DNA from: a virus
Length of the DNA stretch: 45,576 nucleotides
Virus record (IMG/VR): IMGVR_UViG_3300020457_000020
Coordinates: 1 to 45,576 of that record
Reading direction: 5' to 3' (one strand)
The position numbers and the translations under genes were made by a program. Shown here one piece after another: positions 15,777-45,576 of the stretch. Below the pieces are notes generated by a model. The model saw nothing but the letters and a program-made list of their open reading frames with translations, was not told the origin of the DNA and ran no database searches. Position 1 is the first letter of the stretch; every line of letters starts with the position of its first letter.

Positions 15777-16442
15777 TTAGGATAAATGTTCTGCATCTTC
15801 GCCTGAAATATCTTCAACCATGTTACGCCACATGTCCAAATGAGGTATAACAAAGCCAAAAGTAAGGCGAGGTTCGTATGTTCCTGCACAATGATAGTAA
15901 ACTTTCTCAGGTTCTCTGCCCCTGCCATAGTATCCTACTTTACAACACCAACCTCCTGGGTCTTGCATGTGGACTACATCATTAATAGTTCTATCTAAGT
16001 GAGGTTTTCTATACTTAAAAAACCCAGTGCCCTTTTCAGTATAAGAAAGTAAAATATTATAACCAGAAGCGTTCCAGTTATTATGCCAGCCCATAAAGCC
16101 ACCTTTAGGGTAATATACATGAACTGCCTGGTATGCTGCTCCTGTAAAAGAGATAACTTCTTCTGTGATTTCTTCATATTTGCTATTGAAGGCCTCTCCA
16201 TGTTTGCCCATGTTTAGATCGTAAGCATAGGAAACTTCTGGATATCCTTCATGTTCTCCGTCTTTATCCACAATCTCCTTTAGATAATTATCACTACAAT
16301 AATATTCTAAGTCATGTTCTTTAGGATAGTTTGGATGTTCTAGAGCTAGTTTATCTAATTCTGATAAGTCTTGTTTGAAAAACCAATCAGAGTAGGGCGT
16401 CAGTATGTCTAGTAATTCTTGAGATATTTCGGTTTTTATCAT
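15777..16442 (-). CDS. Iron/2-oxoglutarate oxygenase-like protein with an H-x-N site
   Basis: 221 residues. The double-stranded beta-helix core appears at GGFMGWHNNWNASGYNILLS, followed by GTGFFKYRKP, GGWCCKVGYYG, KVYYHCAG and RLTFGFVIP. The metal ligands expected in this fold are H120, the residue two on (N122 instead of Asp/Glu) and H184; R192 would bind 2-oxoglutarate. Marine phage relatives with a GWHTN motif are known to me as 2OG-Fe(II) oxygenases, so H-x-N is probably a family trait rather than a lesion. There is no clear ribosome site before the ATG. Substrate unknown. Confidence 0.7.
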   Translation of the reverse strand: MIKTEISQELLDILTPYSDWFFKQDLSELDKLALEHPNYPKEHDLEYYCSDNYLKEIVDKDGEHEGYPEVSYAYDLNMGKHGEAFNSKYEEITEEVISFTGAAYQAVHVYYPKGGFMGWHNNWNASGYNILLSYTEKGTGFFKYRKPHLDRTINDVVHMQDPGGWCCKVGYYGRGREPEKVYYHCAGTYEPRLTFGFVIPHLDMWRNMVEDISGEDAEHLS

Positions 16443-39572: not shown

Positions 39573-40175
39573 ATGGCGGATAAGACACCATTTACAGAAA
39601 TAAGATTGAGAGCAGGAGATGTTGACAAATCTGCGAACTGGTATCAGCAACAAGTTCGTAGTTATGCCAGACACCTTACAAATCCTAACGAATTGTATCA
39701 ATCAGACTTAGGTAAATTTGCTACACAATTAGAAGTGGGTAAAATGTATTTGTTTGAATACGACCCTAAAACAAAAGCAGACTTACCTTATTATGATAAC
39801 TTTCCTTTAATTATAATGGTAGATCAACTACCTAAAGGATTCAGTGGTATTAACTTACATTACTTACCACCTCTAATAAGAGCTAAACTATTAGATAAAC
39901 TAATGCCAGCTACAGAGATGGAGTCAGATACAACGTTAAGATCTTCTTGGCCACAAATAAGAAACTTTAGTAGGTTTCCAGAATTGAGAGGTGCTGTAAA
40001 GAAATATTTAAGTCAACAGGCAGGTAAGATGTATGAGATAAATCCTTTTAATTGGAAGTCAGCTATATTTTTACCTGTTCAACAATTTAAAGGTGGTGTT
40101 GGTCCACAAGAAATTTATAGAAATACTATGGAAAGACCAGAGAGAAAACGTAGAAACACAATAGGAGGCTTTTAA
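39573..40175 (+). CDS. 200-residue unknown between gp4 and gp54
   Basis: I do not recognise a T4 counterpart. The protein begins MADKTPFTEIRLRAGDVDKS and includes a distinctive YYDNFPLIIMVDQLPKGFSG block followed by INLHYLPPLIRAKLLDKLM. The end is very basic (PERKRRNTIGGF). It shares TAATG with gp54, so it is produced in step with the tube initiator and is probably a tail- or head-completion factor. The ATG has no ribosome site; the adjacent late box predicts a leaderless message. Confidence 0.7.
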   Translation: MADKTPFTEIRLRAGDVDKSANWYQQQVRSYARHLTNPNELYQSDLGKFATQLEVGKMYLFEYDPKTKADLPYYDNFPLIIMVDQLPKGFSGINLHYLPPLIRAKLLDKLMPATEMESDTTLRSSWPQIRNFSRFPELRGAVKKYLSQQAGKMYEINPFNWKSAIFLPVQQFKGGVGPQEIYRNTMERPERKRRNTIGGF

Positions 40176-40840
40176 TGGCAATTGATAGTAATTATCAAAA
40201 CGGAGATGCAGCCATGACAATGCTTCAACCTAAGAGATTAGGTAGTGGAGAGTTTGGATCTAGTAGCCAATTAGGCTTTATCAATAAAGTCAGAACTATG
40301 CCAATGGCATTTACAGAAAGATTTGAAGCACATGTGAAGTTTCCACAGGCTTTAGATCTAGAGATGCCTGGACAGTCTACTACTGACATAGGTTTAGCTA
40401 GTAACGAATGTGCTTTACTATGTGAAGAAGTTCAAATACCTGGTATGGTATTATCTAACAAAGAACAACAATACGGAAACTGGGTTTTCTACAGAAATAC
40501 AAACATGGGATTTTTAGGTAATGAAATAAACATTACTTTTTATTCTGATGTAGACTGGAACCTTAGATATGTATTTGAAAGATGGATGTCGCATTGTGTT
40601 AATGCAACATCTAAACAAGTAAGATTTCCCGACGATCAGTTTGGAGAAATACTTATTAACCAATTAGATAAAGAAGGCAATATACGAGGACAATGGCAGT
40701 TGATGGAAGCTACGCCTAAAGTTCTTAACTTGGTTCCTTTGTCTATGGGAGCAGTAAGTATAGCAAGGACAACATTAATTGTTTCCAGCGCTTACTGGAA
40801 ATCTAGAGCTATAGACGTAGATCTAAATAAAACTATATAA
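40175..40840 (+). CDS. gp54: Baseplate tail-tube initiator (T4 gp54)
   Basis: 221 residues (T4 320). Tube-like fold: FTERFEAHVKFPQALDLEMP, LLCEEVQIPGMVLSNKEQQY, NEINITFYSDVDWNLRYVFE followed by RWMSHCVN, ending with a strand series (IARTTLIVSSAYWKS). This corresponds to the gp54 layout (an N-terminal strand, VYSVQMPENRLG, PLVISFRMD, AMQDWVNAV). gp54 sits on gp48 and starts the tube. It is short compared with T4, lacking most of the N-terminal extension. Confidence 0.8.
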   Translation: MAIDSNYQNGDAAMTMLQPKRLGSGEFGSSSQLGFINKVRTMPMAFTERFEAHVKFPQALDLEMPGQSTTDIGLASNECALLCEEVQIPGMVLSNKEQQYGNWVFYRNTNMGFLGNEINITFYSDVDWNLRYVFERWMSHCVNATSKQVRFPDDQFGEILINQLDKEGNIRGQWQLMEATPKVLNLVPLSMGAVSIARTTLIVSSAYWKSRAIDVDLNKTI

Positions 40841-40852
40841 TAGGAGAAAATT

Positions 40853-41554
40853 ATGGCACTACCAAAATTAGATACGCCAATAATAAGAGGACAGGTAGCT
40901 TCTGACGGAAGGGAAGTAAAGTTTACACCCTTTAAAGTTAAAGAAGAAAAAATCCTTATGTTGGCAAGTGAAGGTGGCGAGTTTGGGGAGATGGTTGATG
41001 CATGTGCCCAAGTCGTTAATAATTGTGTGCAAGACGAAGGCTTTGATGCCTACGATTTGCCAATGTTTGATTTACAAGATTTGTTTTTACAAATAAGAAA
41101 TCAATCACAAGGAGCTGAAACAGAATTCAGATTAATTTGTGGCAATCCAGAGTGTAAGAAATCTATAAACTACACTATGGATTTAAAAGACTTTAAAATT
41201 ACAGGACTAGAAGATAGGCCAGATAATTTTGTAAAGATATCAGAAACAATGGGTGTATCTTTAAGATACCCTACAGCAAGATTAGGTAAGTTAGTAGAAA
41301 CTCTTAATGATGCTGAACTTGTTGCTAAGTGTATAGATTATGTTGTGGATGGGGAAGAACAATATAGCATCAAGGACGAAACTGAGGAAGAAGTAACCAG
41401 TTTCGTAAACGATCTTCCAATAGATACATTTAATGAAATTAGAGATTTCTTTGATAGAATGCCAGTGCTTGAGCATGAAATAGAATATACATGCGCGCAT
41501 TGTGAAAGGGATAACCGTATAAAAATTAATGGTTACGAACATTTTTTCGGCTAA
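40853..41554 (+). CDS. gp26: Baseplate hub / tail assembly chaperone (T4 gp26-like)
   Basis: 233 residues. The family core is present: LPKLDTPIIRGQVASDGREV, then FTPFKVKEEKILMLASEGGE, VVNNCV, YDLPMFDLQDLFLQIRNQSQ. Two cysteine pairs, CGNPEC and CAHC, look like a zinc ribbon. The reading frame ends EHFFG-stop, and the bases coding HFF are a T TTT TTC slippery site, so a fraction of ribosomes is expected to continue into the 63-codon -1 frame. It lies directly before the tape-measure gene, the position of G/GT-type chaperones in long-tailed phages. Start after AGGAGAAAATT. Confidence 0.85.
   Translation: MALPKLDTPIIRGQVASDGREVKFTPFKVKEEKILMLASEGGEFGEMVDACAQVVNNCVQDEGFDAYDLPMFDLQDLFLQIRNQSQGAETEFRLICGNPECKKSINYTMDLKDFKITGLEDRPDNFVKISETMGVSLRYPTARLGKLVETLNDAELVAKCIDYVVDGEEQYSIKDETEEEVTSFVNDLPIDTFNEIRDFFDRMPVLEHEIEYTCAHCERDNRIKINGYEHFFG
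41542..41548 (+). promoter_or_regulatory. -1 ribosomal frameshift site T TTT TTC
   Basis: In the gp26 frame the codons are CAT TTT TTC GGC TAA, so the heptamer T TTT TTC has the exact X XXY YYZ form. Both tRNA-Phe molecules can re-pair one base back. The stop codon follows one codon later. The -1 frame is then open from 41548 to a TAG at 41737-41739. Confidence 0.85.
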
Positions 41555-41739
41555 TCCTTTCTCAGGAAAGTCTTGAAAACTATTACAAGACTAATTTCCT
41601 GTTAATGCAAGAACATCAATATTCTTTATCGGAACTAGAGAATATGATGCCGTGGGAAAGGAGTATATATGTTTCAATGTTGATTGAACATCTGGATAAG
41701 AAGGCAAAGAAAGAAAAACAACAAAGAGAAAGTTGGTAG
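41548..41739 (+). CDS. -1 frame extension of gp26 (GT-type chaperone tail)
   Basis: 63 codons reached only by a -1 shift at 41542-41548, giving a fusion of about 295 residues (232 from gp26 plus 63). The extension starts RLILSQESLENYYKTNFLLM and continues with ELENMMPWERSIYVSMLIEH and a lysine-rich end. The region upstream of its first ATG (41605) is conserved-looking and helical, no ribosome site precedes that ATG, and the frame is open across the gp26 stop. It corresponds to the T domain that contacts the tape measure in G/GT systems. It may have been annotated as a gp51-like small gene in relatives. Confidence 0.8.
   Translation, partial: RLILSQESLENYYKTNFLLMQEHQYSLSELENMMPWERSIYVSMLIEHLDKKAKKEKQQRESW
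41563..41601 (+). other. Stem-loop after the frameshift site
   Basis: CAGGAAA (41563-41569) pairs with TTTCCTG (41595-41601) and GTCTTG (41570-41575) with CAAGAC (41586-41591), giving 13 pairs with a three-base bulge and a ten-base loop. A competing small hairpin, CTTTC-TCAG-GAAAG (41557-41570), starts after an eight-base spacer from the slippery site, the usual distance for a -1 stimulator. Confidence 0.65.
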
Positions 41740-41750
41740 AGGAAAATTAA

Positions 41751-44700
41751 ATGCCCAAATTTGGCGAAAAAGATCTAGATAAACTATTAGACAAAATGTC
41801 TAAGATGGACCCTGATCCTGATAAAGGAGCAATAGGAGACTCTAAAGAATATACTGCTTTAGAGCAAGCCATACAAGATTTAGAAAGTGAAGCAAAAGGA
41901 GAAAGAAAAGAGCTTGCTGATATGGCAAAGCAAAACAACGTTGCCAACAATTTACAGATCGCCAAAGAAGTTGTAACCTTTAAGAGAGAAAGGGACGCAG
42001 CTAAGAAGATAGATAAAAATCTAGATATTCTAAGAATCAATACACAAGGTCAAAAGAAACATAACAAAAGAGCTGCACAATCTAGACACTTCATAGAAAA
42101 ACAAAATACAGGTATATTAAAGATACTTAAATCTATGAATCAAAGAGGAGGAGGTGCAGGTCCTGGAGGCGGTGGTCCTGGCCCAGGTCCAGGTCCAGGC
42201 GGTGGCGGAGGCCCAGGTCCTGGAGGCGGTGGAGGAGGTCCACAACCACAGAATTTTGATCAACCTATAGAAACAAAACAAACAGCATATCAAATGACTC
42301 CTGAACAGGCTGCTGCTAGAAAAAGAGCAGAAGGACAATTCAGAGATAAAGAAGATACAGATAAAGATCCTAAAGGAGAAATATCCACAGACGTTAAAAT
42401 GTCTCAGGCAGGTAAAGTTATAGAAGATACTGCTACAGGAGAAATGCGAGAGTCTACTGCAGGAACATTTGAAAAGGGAGCAGCTAAAGACTTTTTCTCA
42501 GACGAAGCAATGGTTACAAACCAAAAGAATATGCGTAAGCTTCGTGTAGGTGGTAAAGGACTTGTAAGAGCAGAAACAGATAGAACAGGAAATATTAAAT
42601 TTAGAGAAGAGTCAGACCCTTCTAAAGGATTAGGTAAAGGCGGAGGACAATACGCAGACGCCATAGCATTTGAAGACTCTGAAAATAGAATGGACCAGTT
42701 AGCTGGTAACATTAAAAAAGGTATGGGATATGCAGGTGCTACAAGAGATAGAGGCCAATCTGTAGCTTCTAAAGCTACTGCAACAATGGCTACAGCATTA
42801 AAAGATAATGCTGGAGAAATACAACAAATGATGGATAAGGCAGACGATCAAACTAAAGATGCCTACAGAGATTTCCAACAAGCATTACAAAAAAGAGCAG
42901 AAGCTAAAACTCCAGAAGACAAAGAAAAACTAGACCAACAAGTAAGAGAAAAAGGTGCAAGAGCACAAGTGGCTATGGGAGATGAGTTTGCCGAGAAAGC
43001 AGGTGTAACAGGTGCTGTAGACGACTTGTATAGTGAAGAGTCTAAATCCTTTATGGGTATTCCTCTTAATAAAACAGGTATGAAGGACTTCTTTGGTGTA
43101 GATTCAGATGCCTCATTTGGAGAAGGATTTAAACAAGCATTCACTAATGAAAGATTTTTTGGAGATCAATCTCTCTTAACTACAAAGACAGGTAAGAAAA
43201 GAAAAGCATTAGAAGAGGCAAGACAAGGACTTGATATAGAGTCACAAGAAGAAGGATTTAGAGCAGCAGTTGGAGAAGAAGGATTAGGAATATCTACACT
43301 TAAAAAAGAAGAAAAAGATGCTAAGAGAAAAAGAGAACTAGATGATGTAGAACAAACAGTATTAGAAGCTACAAAAGCACCTGTAATAGAAGAAACACAA
43401 GCAGCTGTAGATGAGGCAGTAGCAGAAACCACAGAAGAAGTAGCAGAGCCTGCCGTAGAAGCAATAAAAGAAGCTACAGGTGGAGAAGGTATAAGTGGTA
43501 TCAATACAGAAAATATAGACAGAGTTATTGAAAAAATAGATGAAGTTGTAAAAGCTGTAGAAGGATTAGGTAAAAAATTAGGAAGAGGTGGTAGTGGTCC
43601 TAAGAAAGAAAGATCTGGAATAGATACTGAAAACTTACAACAAGAACAATTAGAAGTCCTAGAAGAAATTAGAGATATATTATCTGAAGGCGCTGGTGGA
43701 GGCGGAGACGAAGGTGGCGGTGGTTCTGGTATAGGCGACTTTATAGGTCGTAAGATCAAGAACAAGGTAATGGGTAAGAAAGGCAAGAAGGGCAAGAAAG
43801 GAAGCCGAGGCGCTCGTAGAGGTGGTGGCAAGAAAGGCATGATGAAAGGCATAGGTAAAGGCCTGGCTAGAGGTGCTGGAGGATTGGCTAAAGGATTAGG
43901 TGCAGCAGCAAGAGCCATACCTGGTGTAGGGTTAGCTGTAGCAGCTGGGTCAGCACTATTTGGAGGATTCAAAGGAGCTCGTAATGCAGGAGAAGCTTTT
44001 GGATTAGAAGGAGATGAGAAAGCTACTGTAGGACAAAAGATTGCTGGTGGTGTAGGTGGTGCTATATCAGGACTTACATTTGGATTAGTAGATGCCAAAA
44101 AAGCTACACAATTCTTTGGTGGTAAAGATCACAGAGCAGAACTTAGAAAATTACAAGAAACAGATCCAGAAGCAGCAGCTAGAGTTCAAGCTTCTATAGA
44201 TGCAGGTGTTGATCCTGACAAAGCATTAAAGAATGAAGGTGTAGATACAAGTTCAGGACTAATGAAAGGTCTTAAGAGAGGACTAAAATATTCTCCTGTA
44301 GGACTATTAGGAATGGGTGCCAAGAAAATTGGCGGTAAAGTAATGGACATGTTCAAATCTGATGAAACAAAAGCCAGGGACAAAGCAAGAGATGAAGCCA
44401 AAGAATCAGGATTGTATGATAGAAATATAATAGGTAAATCTACAATAGACTCTAGTAAACTAGGCGAAGCTAGTATAGAACAATTAGAAGCAATATTACA
44501 TGACGATGATCTAAGTGAAGAGGATAGAAAGAAAGTAGAAGATGCTTTAGAACAGAAAAAAATAGAAAAAGATAAAGCACTAACAGATGCCGGTTTAGAA
44601 CCTACAGAAGGAACACAGGGAGATGCAGTAGCTGAAGCCTCTACTAATATGGACAGTATGGATGTAGATGCTGCTACAGCACAATTAGCAGATAGTTCTC

Positions 44701-44849
44701 AAGCACCTGCTCCTGTAAATGTAGTAAATCAAGGACAACAAGGACCTGCTTCTACAGGAGATGCTCCAGCAGTTGCAGTATTACCTGGTAGTTTAAGATC
44801 TGCAGATTCTACAATCCAAAGATATCAAGATAAAAGATTTGTAATTTAA
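41751..44849 (+). CDS. Tape-measure protein candidate (tail length determinator)
   Basis: 1032 residues following the chaperone frame by 11 bases. The N-terminal 130 residues are charged helix (YTALEQAIQDLESEAKGERK). About 130-166 is a glycine-proline linker encoded by GGN/CCN repeats. The long middle is helical with Glu/Lys. About residues 685-800 are basic and then hydrophobic (GKGLARGAGGLAKGLGAAAR, IPGVGLAVAAGSALFGGFKG), suiting a membrane-interacting tape segment, and the end is IQRYQDKRFVI. T4's tape measure gp29 has 590 residues. The assignment comes from position, length and composition, not from alignment. The stop codon overlaps that of the lysozyme gene. Confidence 0.72.
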   Translation: MPKFGEKDLDKLLDKMSKMDPDPDKGAIGDSKEYTALEQAIQDLESEAKGERKELADMAKQNNVANNLQIAKEVVTFKRERDAAKKIDKNLDILRINTQGQKKHNKRAAQSRHFIEKQNTGILKILKSMNQRGGGAGPGGGGPGPGPGPGGGGGPGPGGGGGGPQPQNFDQPIETKQTAYQMTPEQAAARKRAEGQFRDKEDTDKDPKGEISTDVKMSQAGKVIEDTATGEMRESTAGTFEKGAAKDFFSDEAMVTNQKNMRKLRVGGKGLVRAETDRTGNIKFREESDPSKGLGKGGGQYADAIAFEDSENRMDQLAGNIKKGMGYAGATRDRGQSVASKATATMATALKDNAGEIQQMMDKADDQTKDAYRDFQQALQKRAEAKTPEDKEKLDQQVREKGARAQVAMGDEFAEKAGVTGAVDDLYSEESKSFMGIPLNKTGMKDFFGVDSDASFGEGFKQAFTNERFFGDQSLLTTKTGKKRKALEEARQGLDIESQEEGFRAAVGEEGLGISTLKKEEKDAKRKRELDDVEQTVLEATKAPVIEETQAAVDEAVAETTEEVAEPAVEAIKEATGGEGISGINTENIDRVIEKIDEVVKAVEGLGKKLGRGGSGPKKERSGIDTENLQQEQLEVLEEIRDILSEGAGGGGDEGGGGSGIGDFIGRKIKNKVMGKKGKKGKKGSRGARRGGGKKGMMKGIGKGLARGAGGLAKGLGAAARAIPGVGLAVAAGSALFGGFKGARNAGEAFGLEGDEKATVGQKIAGGVGGAISGLTFGLVDAKKATQFFGGKDHRAELRKLQETDPEAAARVQASIDAGVDPDKALKNEGVDTSSGLMKGLKRGLKYSPVGLLGMGAKKIGGKVMDMFKSDETKARDKARDEAKESGLYDRNIIGKSTIDSSKLGEASIEQLEAILHDDDLSEEDRKKVEDALEQKKIEKDKALTDAGLEPTEGTQGDAVAEASTNMDSMDVDAATAQLADSSQAPAPVNVVNQGQQGPASTGDAPAVAVLPGSLRSADSTIQRYQDKRFVI

Positions 44850-45325
44850 GCGTTTTTGCCTGGTATTTTTACTCTGAAGTCTGGCAATACCCTAACCCTA
44901 TCTCTTAACCTAGTAGCTCTAGGTCCTACTTGTGTAGCCCAACGACTGTCCATCATTTCAATAGCAGCCTCAGACCAATTAGCTTCATTTATAGCTTTTA
45001 TAAATTTTTTAAATTTACCTAATCTTGGTCTACCTAAATTAAACATCATGTTCACAAGAACTTCTTGTAAGTCAGGAGGATAACCTTCCCAAAACTCTTT
45101 AAATAATGCCTTACATTCATCGATTGCTATATCTAAATCCTTTTCAAAACATTCCTTAACACGTTCTTCTGAGACAGGAGTGCCATTCTCTGCCCGAAAT
45201 TCTGCGTCTCCTTCAAGGATAAGATGGCCAACCCCGAATGTAGGATAACCAAGGTGGTCAGTATATACCTCATATATGACTCCTTCATCAATTTTTAATT
45301 GCTCGTATATTCTATTTCTGTTCAT
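44846..45325 (-). CDS. T4-type lysozyme (endolysin, GH24)
   Basis: 159 residues from the ATG at 45325, chosen after GAGAGGTTT; an upstream frame to 45415 is not needed. The catalytic pattern of T4 lysozyme is intact: YEQLKIDEGVIYEVYTDHLG, then YPTFGVGHLIL, with Glu, Asp and Thr spaced as E11, D20 and T26 in T4. VNMMFNLGRPRLGKFKKFIK and the C-terminal RWATQVGPRATRLRDRV complete the fold. It degrades peptidoglycan at lysis, or at entry if packaged, since the gp5 homologue lacks this domain. The stop overlaps that of the tape measure. Confidence 0.93.
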   Translation of the reverse strand: MNRNRIYEQLKIDEGVIYEVYTDHLGYPTFGVGHLILEGDAEFRAENGTPVSEERVKECFEKDLDIAIDECKALFKEFWEGYPPDLQEVLVNMMFNLGRPRLGKFKKFIKAINEANWSEAAIEMMDSRWATQVGPRATRLRDRVRVLPDFRVKIPGKNA

Positions 45326-45576
45326 TAAACCTCTCTCTTCTGATCTACTTCTTTTATGTTTACACCTTGTCCTGTAAGTTTGTAACCAAACTGTAAAGCA
45401 GGATCTATAAAACATAAAACGATAGTAACTCTTAAGCGTTCGTATTTATCATTTGGGTTATGTATATAACCTCCCTGAGCTTCTCCTTTCCTATATATTA
45501 ATGTATCTGTTCCAGGAACCTCATGTTCTATCCAACCAGGCCACAACAATAAGTCTCCTGTCTTTCCGTTTAAAAC
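45325..45576 (-). CDS. Oxygenase-like protein, C-terminal part only (cut by window edge)
   Basis: The frame is open to the right edge, so only the last 83 residues are visible. They begin with GKTGDLLLWPGWIEHEVPGT and contain YERLRVTIVLCFIDP. The P-G-W..H.V pattern followed by an R is typical of 2-oxoglutarate/Fe(II) oxygenases, where the His is the second metal ligand and the Arg binds 2-oxoglutarate. The stop and the lysozyme ATG share a base (TAATG). Identity of the full gene cannot be judged from this part. Confidence 0.6.
   Translation of the reverse strand, partial: VLNGKTGDLLLWPGWIEHEVPGTDTLIYRKGEAQGGYIHNPNDKYERLRVTIVLCFIDPALQFGYKLTGQGVNIKEVDQKREV

Follow-up and report, generated by a model that had tools for sequence, protein, structure and literature searches.

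A conserved slippery site and a covarying long-range RNA stem at the probable gp26-gp51 frameshift of a marine T4-like phage

Introduction

Does the tail gene gp26 of an uncultured marine T4-like phage simply end at its stop codon, or do some ribosomes slip back by one base shortly before it and continue into the adjoining frame, which resembles gp51? The question is raised by a heptanucleotide, T TTT TTC, at the end of gp26 in a 45,576-nucleotide stretch of viral DNA (the whole stretch analysed, termed the window in the following; IMG/VR record IMGVR_UViG_3300020457_000020).

Phage lambda produces the proteins G and GT by -1 frameshifting, and these products bind the tape measure protein (reviewed in PMC5009743). 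As in the arrangement considered here, the two-product gene of lambda lies 5' of the tape measure gene, and the -1 shift takes place shortly before the first frame ends (PMC5009743). Poly-T slippery sequences have been described in TAC-N genes of T4-like phages (PMC12846349), and according to the PRFect paper (PMC10885494) some T4-like phages possess one short and one fused gene instead of frameshifting; both texts cite Vladimirov et al. 2022, a study known to us through such citing texts. As far as these relate it, the T4-like poly-T chaperone genes share with the window locus a short form, a -1 frameshifted long form and a poly-T run near the end of the short gene, but the citing passages contain no long-range stem, and the window represents an uncultured marine phage. 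An earlier note on this DNA, made from the sequence alone, had considered frameshifting to be undescribed for the T4 group, a view that has to be corrected, as it was already reported according to the passages in PMC10885494 and PMC12846349.

The locus and its two reading frames

The order of genes in the window is tail tube, gp26, gp51 and a long downstream gene, with the following features around the junction:

40175..40840, plus strand: tail tube gene, upstream context (phrog_45 tail tube, E=1.8e-18)
40853..41554, plus strand: gp26, short form of the proposed tail assembly chaperone, 233 aa (PF12322, phrog_150, AlphaFold)
41542..41548, plus strand: slippery heptamer T TTT TTC (sequence; conservation in relatives)
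41549..41554, plus strand: spacer GGCTAA, 6 nt, containing the zero-frame stop (stop at +10 in 137/144 non-redundant loci)
41548..41739, plus strand: -1 frame tail, the gp51 domain, 63 codons and TAG, C-terminal part of the proposed long form (phrog_634; no start before 41605)
41751..44849, plus strand: downstream gene, presumed tape measure, 1032 aa (position only)

The junction reads CAT TTT TTC GGC TAA (41540-41554), with an exact T TTT TTC one codon 5' of the gp26 stop. From 41542 the -1 frame meets no stop until TAG at 41737-41739; the peptide after the slip is RLILSQESLENYYKTNFLLMQEHQYSLSELENMMPWERSIYVSMLIEHLDKKAKKEKQQRESW, and the predicted fusion would comprise 232 gp26 residues and 63 new ones (codons 41548-41736). 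On the other side, the -1 frame is closed 12 nt 5' of the heptamer. Its first ATG, GTG or TTG is the ATG at 41605 (+63), which is located within the conserved domain, and the full gp51 is thus left without a usual independent start codon. The sequence agrees here with the earlier note, which had described the heptamer one codon before the gp26 stop, a -1 frame open to 41739 that encodes 63 residues and would give a fusion of 232+63, and the lack of an ATG near the beginning of that frame.

Both parts of the locus match family models of the T4-like gp26/gp51 chaperones. gp26 is recognized by the profiles PF12322 T4_baseplate (E=1.1e-54) and phrog_150 (E=3.7e-56), and the -1 frame by phrog_634, “baseplate hub assembly catalyst” or gp51 (E=8.8e-26), as well as by the C-terminal end of phrog_150. 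The AlphaFold model of gp26 is confident (pLDDT 92) and resembles viral gp26-type models. A fold search with gp26 against the PDB gave no match below E=0.7, lambda-type chaperones included, and a sequence search against the PDB gave none. No homology to lambda G/GT by sequence or fold was visible in these searches, and the slip sequence of lambda also differs from T TTT TTC. In common with lambda, the locus has a slip site close to the end of its first frame, which a second frame overlaps, and the presumed tape measure gene follows directly.

The latter gene is presumed to encode the tape measure by its position only. A profile search with the 1032-aa protein returned phrog_26249, of unknown function, as the sole match; the gene at the corresponding place in phage HTVC008M matches tape-measure families, and BLASTP of the 1032-aa protein against part of the HTVC008M tape measure found nothing. 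Near its start the protein contains a Gly/Pro-rich repeat stretch (GPGPGPGGGGG..., 42150-42245). An ORF that appears lysozyme-like by eye from its translation (44846-45415, minus strand) is convergent with this gene and overlaps its end by 4 bases.

Conservation of the slip site

IMG/VR was searched with the downstream 50 residues alone, a query without the heptamer, which recovered 67 distinct related junctions; as the query consisted of the downstream peptide only, these were not selected for the heptamer. TTTTTTC with a zero-frame stop at +10 is present in 65 of the 67, and TTTTTTT with a stop at +7 in the remaining 2. Six T occupy the junction in 434 of all 443 loci collected. Conservation of T TTT TTC and the -1 frame among relatives, which had been put forward as a check of the frameshift, is borne out by these counts. 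A set of 144 non-redundant loci comprises 132 with TTTTTTC, 11 with TTTTTTT and a single one with TTTTTTA, and in 137 of them the zero-frame stop is at +10. None of the six T columns varies among 62 representatives, in which pairwise identity over the 60 bases upstream averages 54%. The same arrangement is found in cultured phages of Prochlorococcus, Synechococcus, Pelagibacter, Vibrio, Aeromonas, Ochrobactrum, Caulobacter and Pseudomonas.

The word itself is unremarkable in the window (TTTTTTC is observed 13 times and expected 16.6 times), as would be the case if the open -1 frame and the heptamer had met by chance. This explanation is refuted by the conservation of the heptamer at the junction over hundreds of phages and by the gp51 homology of the -1 frame. 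When 71 ATG-started ORFs of at least 60 aa on both strands of the window were scanned, only gp26 and one 68-aa minus-strand ORF combined a slippery heptamer within the final 30 nt with a subsequent -1 extension of at least 20 aa. The latter ends in the overlapping heptamers GGGTTTT and TTTTTTA (16016-16025, minus strand), has a -1 extension of 71 codons and is probably a chance ORF.

Of the nine loci without the six T, eight are T4-type gp51 genes and one is that of Vibrio phage SRILMA, and in all of them both parts form one continuous frame. In T4 the minus strand carries gene 26 and the plus strand gene 51, and both proteins match PF12322. T4 gp26 matches phrog_150 over the gp26 part only; T4 gp51 matches positions 13 to 280 of 282, and phrog_634 in addition, and its two parts join at the position expected for the heptamer. 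This coverage indicates that T4 possesses one gene for the short form and another for the fused long form (26 and 51, respectively), and T4 itself is not expressed by frameshifting. Among 11 T4-type fused genes, several of them near-identical, the six T and the stem described below are absent, and no Shine-Dalgarno (SD)-like run is visible upstream. The T4 pair thus corresponds to the same two proteins as the window locus, but these derive from separate genes on opposite strands, without heptamer and without stem. The abstract of Vladimirov, Gautam and Davidson (2022, Virology 566:9-15) reportedly names T4 genes 26 and 51 and frameshifting conserved in several T4-like groups. In Vibrio phage VB_VaC_SRILMA a single uninterrupted gene (667-1356), which lacks the six T, covers the gp26-like and the gp51-like part, a fusion outside the T4 group proper.

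A long-range RNA stem downstream of the slip site

RNAalifold, applied to 59 non-redundant junctions of the clade to which the window belongs (the window clade), identified a 10-bp stem that pairs +13..+22 with +111..+120, begins 6 nt past the heptamer and encloses 88 nt; it was rechecked on a separate MAFFT alignment. In the window its arms are:

41555..41564, plus strand: stem 5' arm TCCTTTCTCA (covariation, pairing; pairing probability 0.85-1.0)
41653..41662, plus strand: stem 3' arm TGGGAAAGGA, within the PWER codons (covariation, pairing; pairing probability 0.85-1.0)

In the MAFFT alignment of the 59 relatives, 97.6% of the stem cells are paired, compared with 41-67% when the partner is slid, and cells with a double change number 32, as against 9.5 in shuffles. 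Ranked by corrected mutual information, the top two of 7,626 column pairs belong to the stem: +14/+119 (UA 36, CG 21) and +17/+116 (UA 49, CG 8), both at third codon positions. Independent paired changes mapped on the protein tree are in step in 6 of 6 cases at +14/+119 and in 3 of 3 at +17/+116. A permutation that preserves the protein, performed on a 12-pair version of the stem, reached at most 652 paired cells in 2,000 runs, compared with 672 of 708 observed. The stem region of the window folds at z=-5.2 (other segments of the region: mean -0.8, sd 1.3), and the distal stem is present in 41 of 43 window-clade loci. A short hairpin at 41557-41570 (CTTTC-TCAG-GAAAG) was also considered, but all five of its pairs occur in only 10 of the 59 relatives, and the long-range stem was preferred. 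Positions 41400-41800 gave no match in Rfam 15 up to E=1. In the literature searched, which includes Vladimirov et al. 2022 through citing texts, no report of a conserved long-range stem and clade-specific stimulators was found, and the long-range stem just 3' of the slip site is apparently new.

The stem also bears on the step at which the frame would be changed. Runs of T can cause transcriptional slippage in bacteria, and in some relatives the site extends to seven or eight T, so that RNA polymerase might add or skip a base and the fusion be translated from edited mRNA. This is very improbable, since the commonest site, six T and a C, is short for that mechanism, and the strict codon phase together with a covarying stem at ribosomal spacing fits slipping by the ribosome better.

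Is gp51 started independently?

Public records point to a gp51 gene of its own: in HTVC008M, S-RIM2, S-CAM3 and others, the annotated gp51 begins at internal starts that lie 45-60 nt or more past the slip site, and three further records have no gp51 annotation at all. gp51 might then be translated separately, by re-initiation or internal initiation after the gp26 stop, with the heptamer being incidental. In line with this possibility, about half of the 144 non-redundant loci have a -1-frame ATG no further than +27, and in KVP40-type Vibrio phages the heptamer is followed by TAATG at the junction. Yet a start with a ribosome-site motif upstream exists in 1 of the 144 loci only. An own gp51 start with a ribosome site in relatives had been named in the earlier note as the observation that would speak against a frameshift, and it is confined to this single locus. 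The window itself lacks the start codon and ribosome-binding site of an independent gp51 gene, with no start before +63, and 35 of the 43 window-clade loci have no -1-frame start up to +27. Moreover, a separate gp51 leaves the invariant six T, the stem and the fused T4 gene unexplained, and it is accordingly a highly unlikely account. Re-initiation may add product in the few relatives with TAATG or ATGA; it cannot explain the window locus.

A gp51 annotated from an internal start is probably a mis-annotated frameshift product, and wherever gp51 is annotated in this way or missed, conserved residues are lost. Sullivan et al. 2010 (PMC3037559) noted that some 200 residues are missing from the beginning of cyanophage gp51; the absence follows if gp51 is the frameshifted tail.

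Frameshift signals in other clades

The E. coli dnaX frameshift signal combines an upstream SD element, a heptamer and a downstream hairpin. P-SSM2-type cyanophage loci contain all three elements at similar distances, whereas the window lacks an SD-like element about 10 nt 5' of the heptamer (-2.2 kcal/mol), and instead of a tight hairpin it has a long-range stem. In P-SSM2- and S-RIM2-type cyanophages an SD-like GGAGGG or TGAGGG ends about 9-10 nt 5' of the heptamer, and an SD-like energy of -6 kcal/mol or lower is reached in 7 of 12 cultured relatives, compared with 8% in the background; the window clade, at about -2 to -4 kcal/mol, is mostly devoid of such an element. In the P-SSM2 clade, 32 of 37 loci have a local 10-bp hairpin (+12..+21 with +33..+42). 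Its pair +20/+34 (UA, AU, GC) is the top covarying pair among 46 sequences of a subgroup, with few independent changes behind it. RNAalifold found no common stem in the S-RIM2 and P-SSM2 sets, and the P-SSM2 hairpin surfaced only when one subgroup was taken by itself. In the S-RIM2 clade the heptamer is retained and little structure follows it, and hence the stem is not universal. A distal complementarity also exists in KVP40-type Vibrio phages (TGCTCGGTAGA and TCTATTCGAGCG); its sequence bears no relation to that of the window stem, and the sequences are too few and too similar for covariation.

A strict rule of “SD or stem, never both” was rejected. A 2x2 table looked exclusive, but the energy cut-off alone is unspecific (a control segment passes it in 64 of 144 loci) and tree-aware pairs were not significant, and for these reasons the split is retained only as a description of clades.

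Considering the S-RIM2 clade, in which the heptamer comes with little structure, the frameshift might be real and the stem serve another RNA function, e.g., transcript stability or control of the next gene. This is rather unlikely: the stem begins 6 nt past the heptamer, a classic distance for a stimulator, the P-SSM2 clade has a different local stem from +12, and the 11 fused T4-type genes, which need no frameshift, are devoid of the stem. On balance, we favour the reading that the frameshift signals of T4-like chaperone genes are interchangeable designs, where the stimulator was re-engineered between clades within one gene family and the T4 group dispensed with it by separate short and fused genes. 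The cyanophages would then employ an SD-like element upstream, in some cases together with a local hairpin, and the window clade a stem enclosing 88 nt; a common 5' arm region with differing partners seems a reasonably good description of these designs.

One chaperone gene with two probable products

Support for a -1 frameshift comes from a slip site that does not vary, a stop at a fixed position, the lack of an independent start, the gp51 homology and the in-frame T4-type gp51 fusion. Judged from sequence comparison, gp26 and the -1 frame very probably constitute one tail assembly chaperone gene, which yields two products through a -1 slip that is probably stimulated by the stem. The earlier proposal of a programmed -1 frameshift joining gp26 to a 63-codon frame, which slip-site and stop conservation, gp51 homology and the T4 fusion favour, thus appears sound. 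Most ribosomes would end at the gp26 TAA and produce a short form similar to lambda G. A minority would slip from T TTT TTC to TTT TTT, bypass the TAA and add the 63-residue gp51 domain, giving a long form similar to lambda GT. In the window phage and its uncultured relatives, the 10-bp stem inside the gp51 coding sequence probably raises the rate of this slip. Both products may act as chaperones of the tape measure; gene order and the T4-like chaperones published according to PMC10885494 and PMC12846349, as far as these relate them, also lend support to the suggestion that gp26 is a G/GT equivalent.

In many marine phage genomes gp51 is listed as a short gene of its own, with an internal start, or missed altogether; almost certainly it forms the second half of a frameshift product. 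With the covarying stem in the window clade and an SD-like element or a local hairpin in its place in sister clades, these loci represent a natural series for how frameshift rates are set, and the fused, frameshift-free version of T4 provides the control for that series.
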